Assembly (NCBI GenBank): GCA_902582845.1
Contig: CACHTQ010000003.1
Location: 62,001-126,000, forward strand
Origin: an uncultured Pelagibacteraceae bacterium
GTDB taxonomy: Bacteria > Pseudomonadota > Alphaproteobacteria > Pelagibacterales > Pelagibacteraceae
Direction: 5' to 3'
Length of the DNA stretch: 64,000 bases
This document shows, in pieces, positions 7,594 through 63,652 of this stretch. Each line of letters starts with the position of its first letter. The stretch's first letter is position 1. The notes beneath the pieces were generated by a model, which was not told the origin of the DNA, did no database searches, and saw nothing but the letters and a program-made list of their open reading frames with translations. Both the position numbers and the translations under genes were made by a program.

Positions 7594-8174
7594 TTATAAT
7601 TATCTAAATATTTTTTAATTTTTTCAATCGGGAGTCCCATTATTGTATTTTCGTTTCCATCGATACTTGAGAATAACTTTCTTCCCTCGCCTTCTATTTG
7701 ATAAACATTATAAGCATATAAAGCCTCATCAGAAATTTTGGCTAAGTAATTTTTAAGCTCATCATCATTCATTTTTTTCATTGTCAAAGTTGCCTTATCT
7801 GTATGATTCCATACCATAGATCCATTTTTAGAGATACATGCTGAACTAATTAAATAATGTTTTTTACCATTAAGTTTTCTTAAAATTTCTAAAGCTTCTT
7901 CTCTATTATCTGGTTTTGATATTAGTTCTCCGTTTAAATCGATGACACTATCAGCGCCTAAAACTAAATTATCACTATATTTCCCGCTTATTTTGTTAGC
8001 TTTTAATTCAGCTAAATTTTTAGATATTATCTCTGGTGAAGCTTTTTCTTTTAATAAACTTGATTTAACAACATCTTCGTCAACATTTGATGGTATAACT
8101 TCATTCAAAATATTGTGTTCATCAAGAATTTTCTTTCTAACTTTGCTTTGAGAAGCAAGAATAATTTTAAGCAT
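7590..8174 (-). CDS. maf: Maf-like nucleotide pyrophosphatase
   Basis: IILASQSKVRKKIL; LGADSVIDLNGEL; YQIEGEGRKLFSSIDG. Confidence 0.92.
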   Translation of the reverse strand: MLKIILASQSKVRKKILDEHNILNEVIPSNVDEDVVKSSLLKEKASPEIISKNLAELKANKISGKYSDNLVLGADSVIDLNGELISKPDNREEALEILRKLNGKKHYLISSACISKNGSMVWNHTDKATLTMKKMNDDELKNYLAKISDEALYAYNVYQIEGEGRKLFSSIDGNENTIMGLPIEKIKKYLDNYK

Positions 8175-8991
8175 TTCCTTTAAAAATTTCGTATATTTTT
8201 ATTATTGAAGCTGCTGTTTCTTCTACAGATTTTCTAGTTACATCAATTGATGGCCATTTATATTTTTTAAAAGTATTTTTTGCCATGTCCACTTCCTTTT
8301 TTATCTGTTCTAAATCAGTGTATAATTTATTAGTATTTTCTTTGAGAGAGTTCATTCTGTTTTTTCTTATTTCCACCAACCTCTCTGGTTCGGTGTTTAA
8401 TCCCACAACACATGAGGTTTTTGGGTTTTGTTTTAAAATCTCTGGAATAGAGTCTTCTGTTATTAAAGGAATGTTAGAAGTTTTAAGGCCTTTATTTGCT
8501 AAAAAAATAGCTGTCGGAGTTTTGCTTGTTCTGCTGACCCCTAATAATATTATATCAGATTGTTTTATTTCTTTTACAAGATTGCCGTCATCATGATTCA
8601 TTGTAAATTGGATCGCTTCAATTCTTTTATAGTAATCTTCATTTAGAGCATATTGACCGCTTGGTAGGTGTGAGGCTTTTTGGTTCAAAAGTTTTGAAAA
8701 ACTTAATATTAGATCACCCAACACTCCAAAACATGGAATTTTTTTCATATCACTATTTTTAGCAAGATATTTTGCTAGGTTACTATCAACGATTGAATAT
8801 AAAATTATTGAGTTTTTTTCTTGCTCAGCGTTTTCTAAAATCTTTAAAATCTGATTTTCCGTTCTAGTAAAAGAATAAGTGTGTATCTTGTAATTTATAT
8901 TTTTAAATTGTGCTTTAATGGCTATAAAAATACGATCTAAAGTCTCACCAGTTGCATCTGATATTAGATAAATTTGATATAAATTACTCAT
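8167..8991 (-). CDS. ppsR: Pyruvate,phosphate dikinase regulatory protein (DUF299)
   Basis: IYLISDATGETLDRI; LLGVSRTSKTPTAIFLANKGLKTSNIPL. Confidence 0.92.
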   Translation of the reverse strand: MSNLYQIYLISDATGETLDRIFIAIKAQFKNINYKIHTYSFTRTENQILKILENAEQEKNSIILYSIVDSNLAKYLAKNSDMKKIPCFGVLGDLILSFSKLLNQKASHLPSGQYALNEDYYKRIEAIQFTMNHDDGNLVKEIKQSDIILLGVSRTSKTPTAIFLANKGLKTSNIPLITEDSIPEILKQNPKTSCVVGLNTEPERLVEIRKNRMNSLKENTNKLYTDLEQIKKEVDMAKNTFKKYKWPSIDVTRKSVEETAASIIKIYEIFKGNA

Positions 8992-9273
8992 GTATAAAAT
9001 GTGTATAAATTTGTATTATATTTATCATATTGGAAATTTTTCATAATTTTAAATTTACGTTGTAAAACAATACTTTTATTAACAATATTAAACATGTTGA
9101 AATTTTTAATGGTCATTTAATGTATTTAGTTAATAAGCTTCAATTTTGCGTATATATTTAATAAAATTTAAGCCTTAAATGTTAATAAATTGTTTATAAA
9201 ATGTTCACTAAATTTAATCATCAATATTCACAGACTATACTAACATTACTACTAATTATATTTAATTATTAAT
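8992..9273. other. Candidate chromosomal replication origin (oriC)
   Basis: One of the longest intergenic stretches in the window, very AT-rich, at a divergent ppsR/hemE junction; exact DnaA box TGTGTATAA at 9000-9008, near-matches TGTTTATAA (9191-9199) and ATATTCACA (9224-9232); hemE-adjacent location as in Caulobacter; parAB and parS nearby. Confidence 0.6.
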
Positions 9274-10275
9274 ATGTCTCCAATCGAGGAAGTAATAATA
9301 AATAAAAAAAGTGATATTAATCCGATTTGGATTATGAGACAAGCAGGAAGGTATTTACCTGAATTTAGAGAAATAAGAAAACAAAATCCAGATTTTATCA
9401 AACTTTGTCTTAACGAAAAATTATCTAGTGAGATTACCTTACAACCTTTAAAAAGATTTAACTTAGATGCAGCAATAATCTTCTCTGATATTTTAATGTT
9501 ACCATATGGTTTAAATCAAAATGTTGAGTTCAAAAAAAATATAGGCCCATTACTTGGCAATCTTGACTTAGAAAAAATCTCTGATGTTAAGGAAGCTGAC
9601 TTCGTTGAAAAACTTTCACCTATTTATAAATTAATTGAATTAGTTAGTAATTCTCAATACACTAAAAATAAAACTACTATAGGTTTTATAGGAGCACCTT
9701 GGACTTTATTAGTTTACATGTTGAATCAAAAATCGCCAAAATTAAACTTAAATGATAATTTTTATGAAGATAAATATTTAATCGATAATGTTTTCAAAAT
9801 TTTAGATAAATTTTTAAAAATACATATTAAAAATCAAATTGATAATGGAGCTCAAATAATTCAAATCTTTGATAGTTGGGCCGGGTTATTAAAAGAAAAA
9901 GATTTATCTTATTATATATATAACCCTACATTAAGTTTGGTTAATTATGTTAAATCTTTAAATGTGCCAGTTATTTGTTTCCCACGAGGAATAAAAAATT
10001 ATAAAGATTATTGTGAAATCGTCAAACCAGACACAATTTGTATTGACTATGAGGTTGATCCAATAAAAATTAATAAAGAAATTAAAATTCCTGTGCAAGG
10101 TGGGATGGATCCAAAAGTTTTACTTTCTGATAAAGAAAACTTAAAAAAAGAGGCAATAAAATATTTAGATATATTTAAAGATCACCCATATATTTTTAAT
10201 TTAGGACATGGTATTTTGCCAGAAACAGATCCAAATATGATGGATTATTTGGTGAAAACTGTGAAAGATTATTAA
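9274..10275 (+). CDS. hemE: Uroporphyrinogen decarboxylase
   Basis: IWIMRQAGRYLPEFRE; GFIGAPWTLLVYML; FNLGHGILPETDP. Confidence 0.97.
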   Translation: MSPIEEVIINKKSDINPIWIMRQAGRYLPEFREIRKQNPDFIKLCLNEKLSSEITLQPLKRFNLDAAIIFSDILMLPYGLNQNVEFKKNIGPLLGNLDLEKISDVKEADFVEKLSPIYKLIELVSNSQYTKNKTTIGFIGAPWTLLVYMLNQKSPKLNLNDNFYEDKYLIDNVFKILDKFLKIHIKNQIDNGAQIIQIFDSWAGLLKEKDLSYYIYNPTLSLVNYVKSLNVPVICFPRGIKNYKDYCEIVKPDTICIDYEVDPIKINKEIKIPVQGGMDPKVLLSDKENLKKEAIKYLDIFKDHPYIFNLGHGILPETDPNMMDYLVKTVKDY

Positions 10276-13044: not shown

Positions 13045-13085
13045 TTAAGTTTTCCAATATTAGCGAATAAAAGTTATAATATTTT

Positions 13086-16406: not shown

Positions 16407-17053
16407 TGGATAACTTAATTTTAAATTCTTATTCCAAAATTTCCAATTTGAATGTTTCACGTGAAACTTGTAATGAGCTTGAGAGCTTAATTACGATGAT
16501 ACAGGAGAAAAATCAGAAAATTAACATTATAAGTAAAAAAATGTATGAAAAGGAGTCAATAAGAGAGCGCCATATAATAGATTCTGCGCAAATTATTGAT
16601 TTTGTTGATTTAAATTCCAATACAACCTCAGATTTAGGTACAGGGGGTGGAATGCCTGGATTAATAGTGGCTATAGTGATGAAAAAAATTAAAAATAACC
16701 TGAAAGTAAACCTTTATGAAAAAAGCTACCACAAATGTGTTTTCCTGAAAGAAGTTTCAAAAAAATTGAATTTAAACACAGAAATAATTCAGAAAGATAT
16801 TTTTTCGCTTAAAAATATTGAAACAGGAACAATTATGTCCAGGGCGTTTAAGCCAATGCCTGTCATTTTAAACTTGGTAAATGAAAATTTTATAAAATAT
16901 AAAAATATTATTTTTTTTATGGGAAGTAGTGGAAGAAAAATTCTTAATGAAACACTTCAAGAATGGGATTTAGATTATGAAGAAAAAAAAAGTTTAACAA
17001 GCAATGACTCATTTATATTAAACATCAAAAAAATTAAAAAAAAGATTTCATGA
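16406..17053 (+). CDS. rsmG: 16S rRNA m7G527 methyltransferase RsmG (GidB)
   Basis: NVSRETCNELE; RHIIDSAQI; DLGTGGGMPGL. Confidence 0.94.
   Translation: MDNLILNSYSKISNLNVSRETCNELESLITMIQEKNQKINIISKKMYEKESIRERHIIDSAQIIDFVDLNSNTTSDLGTGGGMPGLIVAIVMKKIKNNLKVNLYEKSYHKCVFLKEVSKKLNLNTEIIQKDIFSLKNIETGTIMSRAFKPMPVILNLVNENFIKYKNIIFFMGSSGRKILNETLQEWDLDYEEKKSLTSNDSFILNIKKIKKKIS
16453..16468. promoter_or_regulatory. parS centromere-like site (TGTTTCACGTGAAACT)
   Basis: 15/16 match to parS TGTTTCACGTGAAACA, inside rsmG next to parAB. Confidence 0.9.
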
Positions 17054-23327: not shown

Positions 23328-23451
23328 GTATTTAACTTAAAAAATATAAGTATTTAACACAATTTATCATGTTTAAAATTAGAATATCTCGAGATCAAAA
23401 AAAGCACCAAAATAGGCTCTAAAAGTGATGTAAAAATGCAACACAATTATA

Positions 23452-23532
23452 AATTTTAGCCAAAATAACTAAAATTATCTAAGATATCCATTAATTTTTG
23501 CTAGAACAACCCTGTTTATAATTAATTATAAA
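23452..23532 (+). promoter_or_regulatory. Porin upstream region with two perfect inverted repeats
   Basis: AATTTTAG-N9-CTAAAATT (23452-23476) and TTTATAATTAATTATAAA (23515-23532, contains TATAAT), then an AGGAG ribosome-binding site and ATG 23544. Confidence 0.55.
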
Positions 23533-23543
23533 AAGGAGTAAAT

Positions 23544-26236: not shown

Positions 26237-26797
26237 ATGAATTCAAAAGTACTAATTATTTATGAATATCAAATTCTTTTTGGAATATTAGACGAAATTA
26301 AAGAAAATTTAAATTTCAAAATAGTTCAATCAAAAAAAAGCGATTATGATGAAATAAAATTTGATCCTAAAATCAATTATCTAACAATATCAAAAGAAAA
26401 AGTTAAAAATATTGATAGTCTTTTAATTTTAGAAAATACACCAATTAAATTGGAAAAACTCCTTGAAACTATAAATATTAATTTCTTAAAAAAACAGTTT
26501 AGTAACCAATCAAATATAAAGATAGGAAAGTACAATTTAGATTTAAACTCTAGAAAAATATCATTTAAAGATAAAAATTTAGATCTAACAGAAAGAGAAA
26601 CAAGATTGATAATTTTTATAAATGACAAAACAGGTGTTACTGTAAAAGAACTTCAAAAAAATGTTTGGGATTATTCTCCAAGTTTAGAGACTCATACCGT
26701 TGAAACCCATATATATCGACTAAGAAAGAAAATAATGGATATTTTTGGTGATGAAAATTTTATCTTAAACGATAAAAACGGTTACTCGATAAATTGA
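26237..26797 (+). CDS. OmpR/PhoB-type winged-helix regulator with degenerate N-terminal domain
   Basis: LTERETRLIIFI...VTVKELQKNVWDYSPSLETHTVETHIYRLRKKI...GYSI. Confidence 0.88.
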   Translation: MNSKVLIIYEYQILFGILDEIKENLNFKIVQSKKSDYDEIKFDPKINYLTISKEKVKNIDSLLILENTPIKLEKLLETININFLKKQFSNQSNIKIGKYNLDLNSRKISFKDKNLDLTERETRLIIFINDKTGVTVKELQKNVWDYSPSLETHTVETHIYRLRKKIMDIFGDENFILNDKNGYSIN

Positions 26798-60918: not shown

Positions 60919-61317
60919 GTGAAATATAAAGAAAAATTAAGAAATTCAGGACTAAGACCCACTAAACAAAGAGTCCAAATATGTGAAGTACTGTTTGATA
61001 CAGAAAAAACATTTCATTTTACAATAAATGATTTGGAGCGAAAAATTAAAGATAAAATTGATAATAAAATATCCTTAGCAACGATTTATAATACGGTCCA
61101 TGCCTTTGAAAAAAAAGGATACTTAAAACAAATTCCTATAAATTCAAATCAAACTTATTTTGACACAAACATTAACGATCATCATCATTTTTATGATTTG
61201 AAAGACGGTAAATTAATTGACCTGGAAAATTCTGATGTAGGACCTATAAACATCAAAAAAAAAATTAATGGAAAAAAAATCAAGTCTATCGAGGTTCTAG
61301 TAAAACTTGAAGACTAA
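60919..61317 (+). CDS. irr: Irr-type Fur-family iron/heme regulator (GTG start)
   Basis: LRPTKQRVQICEVLF; SLATIYNTVHAFEKKGYL; TYFDTNINDHHHFYDL (His-rich motif of Irr); divergent from fabA-fabB-fabI. Confidence 0.87.
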   Translation: MKYKEKLRNSGLRPTKQRVQICEVLFDTEKTFHFTINDLERKIKDKIDNKISLATIYNTVHAFEKKGYLKQIPINSNQTYFDTNINDHHHFYDLKDGKLIDLENSDVGPINIKKKINGKKIKSIEVLVKLED

Positions 61318-61414: not shown

Positions 61415-63652
61415 ATGAGCACTGAAAATTTTAAAAATAAATCTTTTAAAGCAAATGAGTTAAGCAAATGTCCTTTTACAGGAGCAGGTACACCTGCAAA
61501 GTTTTCTGCAGGAAGAGGGCAATCAGTAAGAGACTTCTGGCCAAATAGTTTAAATCTAAAAATTCTTAGTCAGCATTCTAATTTATCGAACCCTATGGAT
61601 AAAAAATTTAATTATGCAAAAGAATTTAAAAAACTTAATTACAAAGCGCTAAAAAAAGATTTAAAAAAATTAATGACAGACTCACAAGAATGGTGGCCTG
61701 CAGATTACGGTCATTATGGTCCTTTATTTATCCGATTAGCATGGCATGCGGCAGGAACTTATAGGACTGGTGATGGTAGAGGTGGTGCCGGTACAGGTAA
61801 TCAAAGATTTGCTCCACTCAATTCTTGGCCAGATAACGTGAATTTGGATAAAGCAAGGTTACTTTTATGGCCAATCAAAAAAAAGTATGGAAGAAAAATT
61901 TCATGGGCAGATCTATTTATATTAGTTGGAAACGTAGCATTAGACTCTATGGGTTTTAAAACTTTTGGTTTTGGCGCAGGTAGGACAGACATCTGGGAAC
62001 CAGAGGATGATATTTACTGGGGTTCAGAAAAAGAAATGCTAGGTGTTGAGAGATACAGCGGAAAAAGAGATTTAGAGCAGCCGTTAGGTGCTTCTCACAT
62101 GGGTTTGATTTATGTAAATCCACAAGGTCCAGACGCAAATCCAGATCCACTACTAGCAGCACATGACATCAGAGAGACATTTGGAAGAATGGCAATGAAC
62201 GATTATGAAACAGCAGCTTTAGTGGCTGGTGGTCATACATTTGGAAAATCTCATGGAGCAGCATCAGAGTCTTATAAAGGTCCAGATCCAGAAGCCTCAA
62301 AACTTCAGGATCAATCTACTGGATGGAATAGTGGATATAAATCTGGAAAAGGTGTCGATACGATAAGCAGCGGTATTGAAGGTGCTTGGACTCAAAATCC
62401 TACAAAATGGGATATGGGTTATTTAGATTGTTTATATGGTCATGATTGGGAGCTAACAAAAAGCCCAGCCGGAGCTCATCAGTGGACTCCAAAGAAAAAT
62501 GGTCAAAAAATTAAAATGGTTCCTGATGCGCACCAAAAAGGTGTGCTTCATCCACCGATGATGCAAACAACAGATATATCTATGAAAGTTGACCCAAGTT
62601 ATGGACCAATTACAAAGCATTTCCATCAAAACCCTAAAGAGTTTCATGATGCATTCGCTCGAGCATGGTTTAAATTAACTCATAGAGATATGGGTCCAAG
62701 AGTTTGCTACTTGGGTAGTGAAGTTCCAAAAGAGCAATTAATTTGGCAAGATCCAATTGATAAACCAAAATACAAACTAAAATCAAAAGATATAAAAGAT
62801 TTAAAAAACAAAATCTCTAAATCTAAAATATCAATTTCAGATTTAGTTTCTACTGCATGGGCATCAGCTTCAACATTTAGAGGATCAGATAAAAGAGGTG
62901 GTGCAAACGGTGCAAGAGTAATGTTAGAACCACAAAAAAGATGGGCAGTGAATAATCCTAAGAAATTATCAACTGTGGTTAAAGCTTTAAATAAAATTAA
63001 AGATCAATTTGATAATAAAAAGAAAAATGTATCAATGGCAGACTTGATTGTCTTAGCAGGTGGTGTTGGTATAGAGATGGCTGCTAAAAAGGCAGGGCAT
63101 AAAGTTAATGTTCCATTTTCAGCAGGCAGAGGAGATGCAAGACAAGATCAAACTGATATTCATTCTTTTGGTCTTCTTGAGCCTCAGGCAGATGGTTTTA
63201 GAAACTATCTAAATGGCGGAGCTTCAAATGTCTCAGCAGAAGAAAAATTGGTTGATAAAGCACAACTAATGGGTCTGACTACACCAGAAATGACAGCACT
63301 TATAGGCGGTATGAGAGTTTTAAATACTAACTATGATGGTTCAAATTATGGTGTTTTTACAAATAAACCTGGCTCTCTTACCAACGATTATTTCGTAAAT
63401 CTATTAGACATGAATACTACATGGAAAGAGGAAGATAAATCAGAACAAACTTTTGTTGGAAAAGATAGAAAAACTCAAAAAACTAAATGGAAAGCAACAA
63501 GAGTTGATTTGATTTTTGGTTCAAATTCTCAACTAAGAGCTCTTGCAGAAGTTTATGCCTGTGAGGACTCAAGTGAAAAATTTGTTAAAGATTTTATAGC
63601 TGCATGGGTAAAAGTTATGAATTCTGATCGATTTGATTTGAAATTAAATTAA
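61415..63652 (+). CDS. katG: Catalase-peroxidase KatG
   Basis: [57 protein letters not shown]; 745 aa two-domain length. Confidence 0.99.

Follow-up and report, generated by a model that had tools for sequence, protein, structure and literature searches.

The gap between the divergent genes ppsR and hemE at positions 8992–9273 is, with a probability that we put at roughly 93%, the oriC of a Pelagibacter (SAR11) species, occupying the ancestral alphaproteobacterial place between ppsR (COG1806) and hemE. The case rests on gene context, conservation, the layout of DnaA boxes and DnaA-trios, the uniqueness of the conserved block and a rough agreement with strand asymmetry; from these we infer that DnaA binds and unwinds the gap and that replication actually initiates there. 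The original prediction had taken this gap to be the origin and is supported by the hemE/COG1806 boundary, the conserved boxes and trios and the rough agreement of the skew. Estimates of SAR11 growth in the ocean use origin-to-terminus coverage ratios, for which a fixed, sequence-defined origin would help. We found no published description of the SAR11 origin or of its DnaA-trios in the papers searched (DoriC lay outside the search, and priority is not claimed).

Gene context of the ppsR–hemE gap

The window, by which we mean the whole 64-kb stretch of DNA that was analysed, comes from a Pelagibacter genome (G000) of 923 kb that is 76.5% complete. As had been described beforehand (an AT-rich ppsR/hemE gap of about 280 bp, among the longest of the window), the putative oriC is 282 bp long with 16% GC and no assigned strand; it proved to be the longest intergenic gap in the list of open reading frames, the runner-up being about 216 bp (23328–23543), and its AT content is 84% compared with about 70% in the surroundings. 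The genes on either side diverge from it and were both identified by Pfam: ppsR on the minus strand (8167–8991; PF03618, E=7.7e-87), which belongs to COG1806/DUF299 and is the counterpart of Caulobacter CC_0001, and hemE on the plus strand (9274–10275; PF01208, E=3.1e-81), encoding uroporphyrinogen decarboxylase. This order is kept in 79 of 79 informative loci. Leftwards from the gap the genes are ppsR, maf, aroE, coaE and dnaQ (Pfam) and rightwards they are hemE, hemH, hemJ, rho, mnmE, mnmG, rsmG, parA and parB, the latter names being read from the translations with additional Pfam assignments for hemE, parA and parB. A parS sequence with one mismatch (TGTTTCACGTGAAACT, no assigned strand) lies inside rsmG at 16453–16468 (G000:C3:78453–78468), 7.2 kb from the gap, and the mnmEG–rsmG–parAB genes with a parS that had been described within 10 kb are all in place. 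Between rho and mnmE there are only 41 bp here (13045–13085), whereas in 69 related loci the median is 862 bp and the maximum about 1.7 kb; the extra sequence in most relatives probably represents one or two genes.

The experimentally mapped origin of Caulobacter is bounded by hemE (CC3763) and the COG1806 gene CC0001 (DUF299), the predicted origin of Rickettsia has the same bounding pair, and this pair has been proposed as the ancestral origin configuration (PMC1914354); the Caulobacter origin beside hemE that the original prediction invoked agrees with the mapped one. We examined 30 ppsR loci drawn from diverse alphaproteobacterial families, and in 28 of them hemE adjoins ppsR, as judged by the motif RQAGR of HemE in the divergently oriented gene. 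Because the boundary is common to Caulobacter, Rickettsia and these 28 of 30 loci, the position of the gap alone makes a strong prediction, and the hemE/COG1806 boundary is the strongest evidence for an origin. Both the cluster of DnaA boxes and the raised AT content that serve as the criterion for an alphaproteobacterial oriC at hemE/COG1806 are present in the gap. Like Caulobacter Cori and the Rickettsia origin, it combines the same two boundary genes with AT-rich DNA and several DnaA boxes.

DnaA boxes in the gap

Three DnaA-box-like sites had been proposed, TGTGTATAA (9000–9008), TGTTTATAA (9191–9199) and ATATTCACA (9224–9232), and all were found at exactly these coordinates together with two more that had escaped notice (9076–9084 and 9180–9188, both TTATTAACA). 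Most of the sites are one mismatch off the canonical DnaA box. The pattern TTATNNACA is matched four times in the gap (at 9000, 9076, 9180 and 9191) and with one mismatch at 9224, compared with a mean of 0.24 matches in the shuffled gap, where four or more occurred in 0 of 5000 shuffles.

Conservation by column was counted over 52 non-redundant gap sequences (less than 90% mutual identity), whose identity to the window falls as low as 53% and in which the box blocks still stand out. Conservation in relatives had been put forward as a check on the prediction, and the box-like sites are indeed more strongly conserved than the remainder of the gap. Starting from ppsR, the minus-strand site at 9000–9008 (read there as TTATACACA) conforms to TTATNNACA in 30 of the 52 sequences, mostly as TTATTAACA, and the plus-strand site at 9076–9084 does so in 39. 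The next two sites are on the minus strand, with TTATNNACA in 25 sequences at 9180–9188 and in 22 at 9191–9199 (here TTATAAACA, elsewhere TTATAAACT or TTATTAACT). They are followed by a degenerate minus-strand site at 9202–9210, in which T, G and T at 9202–9204 are kept in 50, 52 and 52 of 52 and the full TTATNNACA in 10. On the plus strand a possible weak tandem box (9215–9223, three to four mismatches from TTATCCACA) abuts the box at 9224–9232; its T, AA, T and C at 9215–9218 and 9222 are kept in 49–51 of 52, and a second SAR11 family mostly has TATACACA there. No other 9-mer region of the gap is as conserved as the box at 9224–9232, which points at hemE: this box is kept in 34 of 52 sequences, mostly as the consensus TTATTCACA (28 of 52). 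In all there are five or six conserved box positions, so that the 'very few' boxes of the original prediction was an undercount. Their commonest form in the genus is TTATTAACA, which explains why a search for textbook boxes finds little in the gap, and this form would be a box of lower affinity.

For comparison beyond the window we used a complete relative (G012) and a complete genome from another genus of the same family (G123), sampled in stretches that covered 56% and 55% of them respectively. A profile of 9060–9100 had its best match at its own position in both the window and G012. For a profile of the box array at 9180–9208 the gap was not the best match in G012, indicating weaker conservation of the array than of the trio block described below. 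The density of TTATNNACA alone was rejected as an origin marker, since the gap of G012 ties with two other places at 3 sites per 300 bp. DnaA of G012 is full length, its domain IV aligns to Escherichia coli DnaA (1J1V, E=5e-22), and the RPRQ, SLPEIG and RDHTT motifs of that domain are intact, the last two matching E. coli letter for letter; SAR11 DnaA is therefore expected, from its sequence, to recognize TTATNCACA-like boxes.

A box and DnaA-trio element next to hemE

The bacterial basal unwinding system (BUS) is known in Bacillus subtilis and has been predicted for 85% of 2070 origins, the rule being a DnaA box followed, after a spacer of at most 16 bp, by three or more 3'-NAN-5' trios, whose consensus is GAT (PMC8287927). 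Such an arrangement, a box with at most two mismatches no more than 16 bp from at least three NAN trios, is present at 9224–9254: ATATTCACA at 9224 is two mismatches from TTATCCACA, the first trio begins at 9237 and the run 3'-AAT GAT GAT-5' occupies 9246–9254. Between box and trios lies a 4-bp spacer (9233–9236, plus strand) at the position of the GC cluster; its columns are unconserved in Pelagibacter and hold GG in the second SAR11 family. The six DnaA-trios are on the minus strand (9237–9254) and appear as ATA CTA ACA TTA CTA CTA in plus-strand letters, or 3'-TAT GAT TGT AAT GAT GAT-5' on the bottom strand. The A that recurs every three bases is found in 52 of 52 sequences at 9239, 9242 and 9245, in 51 at 9248, in 44 at 9251 and in 45 at 9254. 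A coding origin for this three-base period was rejected on account of an in-frame TAA at 9241–9243 upstream of hemE. By nearest-neighbour energy the 40-bp stretch from 9236 ranks sixth among the least stable loci of the window and the best stretch in the gap falls within the top 0.3%, and the AT stretch between the trios and the hemE start codon (9255–9273, no assigned strand) is likely to be unwound first.

The likeness to the BUS extends to a plus-oriented box, a 4-bp spacer, 3'-NAT-5' trios on the opposite strand running away from the box, and AT-rich DNA beyond them. Unlike the BUS, the Pelagibacter element has an eroded GC cluster in the spacer, a third trio that lacks the middle A, and its greatest invariance at the last position of the trio and not in the middle only. 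The loose box-plus-trio rule was discarded as a marker because it gave 35 matches in each of two genomes, and specificity resides only in the full profile. A profile of 9215–9260, whose training set contained only sequences below 80% identity to the target, scored 47.9 bits at 9215 in the 64-kb window (next best place −8.0); in 750 kb sampled from G012, its score at the hemE gap was 28.2 (next place 2.7). Box and trios together (9224–9254) are very probably the opening site of oriC, a prediction we hold slightly less firmly than that of the origin itself.

Conservation within and beyond Pelagibacter

Gap length in 98 Pelagibacter loci is 260–285 bp, with a mean GC content of 16%, and in 79 loci the median is 282 bp with an SD of 4.7 even though hemE has diverged to a median identity of 78%. 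A contig labelled as a Flavobacteriaceae MAG (L085) bears a Pelagibacter hemE locus at 88% identity, probably through a binning error.

In G123, hemE, hemH and hemJ have been lost from the origin region and the gap is flanked by ppsR and rho, but it retains box and trios as TTATAAACA-TGAC-CTA ATA ACA AAA CTA, and it gives the highest profile score in the sample (13.0 compared with 7.6). The sole HemE-like match in this genome (L192, L191) shares 30% identity and is encoded near the terminus, at 718 kb. In the second SAR11 family (L028–L038), maf takes the place of ppsR across a gap of about 275 bp with hemE on the other side. CACAGG, the trios and TATATATA are kept before hemE, and in most members the gap ends with TATACACA-ATTCCACAGG-AACATAAACAACTAC-AATTATATATATA ahead of the hemE start, that is, tandem boxes, GG, trios and AT-rich DNA. 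The same layout and orientation adjoin hemE in several other alphaproteobacteria, for example as TTATTCACAGGGATAAACAACTACTACC (L165) and TTATCCACAGGCATCCACTACCTCTACTTCC (L169), and a crude score over 28 loci averaged 0.29 compared with −0.79 in reversed controls.

These comparisons bear on whether the conserved blocks could instead be promoters or leader signals of ppsR and hemE, with no origin in the gap. Two divergent genes do require two promoters there, and AT-rich words resembling −10 regions are present. Promoters do not, however, show an invariant A every three bases beside a DnaA box, and there was no match to an Rfam family. Furthermore the block is kept both in G123, which has rho beside the gap in place of the lost hemE, and in the second family, where maf stands in for ppsR. 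Retention of the element when either neighbour has been lost argues against the promoter explanation, which we regard as very improbable.

Strand asymmetry in complete genomes

Raw GC skew in the sampled G012 is dominated by gene orientation and was replaced by separate fits to intergenic skew and to orientation. GC asymmetry at fourfold-degenerate sites was also dropped for placement, as within a replichore its sign is opposite to that of intergenic GC skew. Two-break fits placed the breaks at 638 kb and 1,246 kb (intergenic G versus C) and at 616 kb and 1,236 kb (gene orientation), and the gap, at about 1,262 kb, is 16–26 kb or 1–2% of the chromosome from the nearest of them; a fit placed at the gap is 4.2 lnL below the best for intergenic skew and within 3 for orientation. 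In G123 the orientation breaks are at 168 kb and 770 kb and the gap lies at 141.5 kb, about 27 kb from the nearer break; an orientation fit placed at the gap falls 5.5 lnL short of the best, and intergenic skew is poorly resolved. Strand asymmetry in the two complete genomes therefore puts the origin within about 15–40 kb of the gap (1–3% of the chromosome) and not exactly on it. The skew minimum, which had been suggested as a check, is not elsewhere at the resolution of the sampled G012. Skew alone is known to be insufficient in several alphaproteobacteria (PMC1914354). Metagenome coverage of SAR11 has been reported as V-shaped with a single origin, the locus being unnamed in the relevant passages (PMC9589681).

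An origin elsewhere nearby, for example at dnaA–dnaN about 62 kb off on the hemE side, with the hemE gap as a relic, gains something from the skew, since dnaA of G012 (1,198,936) also falls inside the 3-lnL interval of the intergenic fit. We consider it even less probable than the promoter explanation: the 9 kb around dnaA hold only four scattered TTATNNACA sites with no box cluster and no profile match, a relic would not retain its length and its box and trio positions across such divergence, and parS is only 7 kb from the gap.

Near the inferred terminus of G012 (about 618.7–619.3 kb, L156) there is a long AT-rich non-coding stretch that is a weak second-best match to two origin profiles.

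Regulation and a possible mechanism

Caulobacter Cori differs in having an IHF site and five sites for CtrA; the boxes of the Pelagibacter gap are mostly TTATTAACA. Pelagibacter is reported to lack a ctrA ortholog (PMC2877005), and CtrA sites are missing from some Wolbachia and Ehrlichia origins too (PMC1914354). The SAR11 clade has also been named as an exception to the conservation of CcrM (PMC3973325; the printed sentence omits 'not' and its context lists exceptions). In our 52 gaps, TTAA-N7-TTAA occurs in 22, with a mean of 0.54 compared with 0.23 after shuffling, a weak excess, and GANTC is nearly absent (0.04 per gap). From the reported lack of ctrA, the CcrM exception and the scarcity of GANTC, control by CtrA and methylation of the Caulobacter type is probably absent from the SAR11 origin.

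With the gap as oriC, DnaA would bind the scattered, mostly low-affinity TTATTAACA-type boxes and the one near-canonical TTATTCACA-type box at 9224–9232, and would spread from the latter onto the bottom-strand trios at 9237–9254. DnaA on the trios would then stretch and open the AT-rich DNA directly upstream of hemE, after which helicase would be loaded and two forks depart; ParAB acting at parS in rsmG, 7 kb off, may separate the new origins. It is conceivable, although we would not quite give it even odds, that the hemE-proximal box and trios are an ancestral unwinding element of the whole class and that SAR11 has pared its origin down to this element and a small number of low-affinity TTATTAACA boxes with fixed spacing, without CtrA/CcrM control, as a DnaA-only minimal origin. 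If so, some of the most abundant cells of the ocean would have a DnaA-only origin. A compact and probably CtrA-free origin makes the roles of DnaA boxes and DnaA-trios directly testable in an alphaproteobacterium.

Two other features of the window may be mentioned. The gene at 26237–26797 encodes a protein resembling response regulators, in which Pfam recognises a Trans_reg_C domain (E=7.5e-10) and no receiver domain, and G012 has a Trans_reg_C protein of similar size at 1,244,375, a matching distance from the origin. At 61415–63652 there is a katG-like catalase-peroxidase gene (from its translation), adjoining a Fur-family-like gene at 60919–61317; SAR11 bacteria are generally considered catalase-poor.
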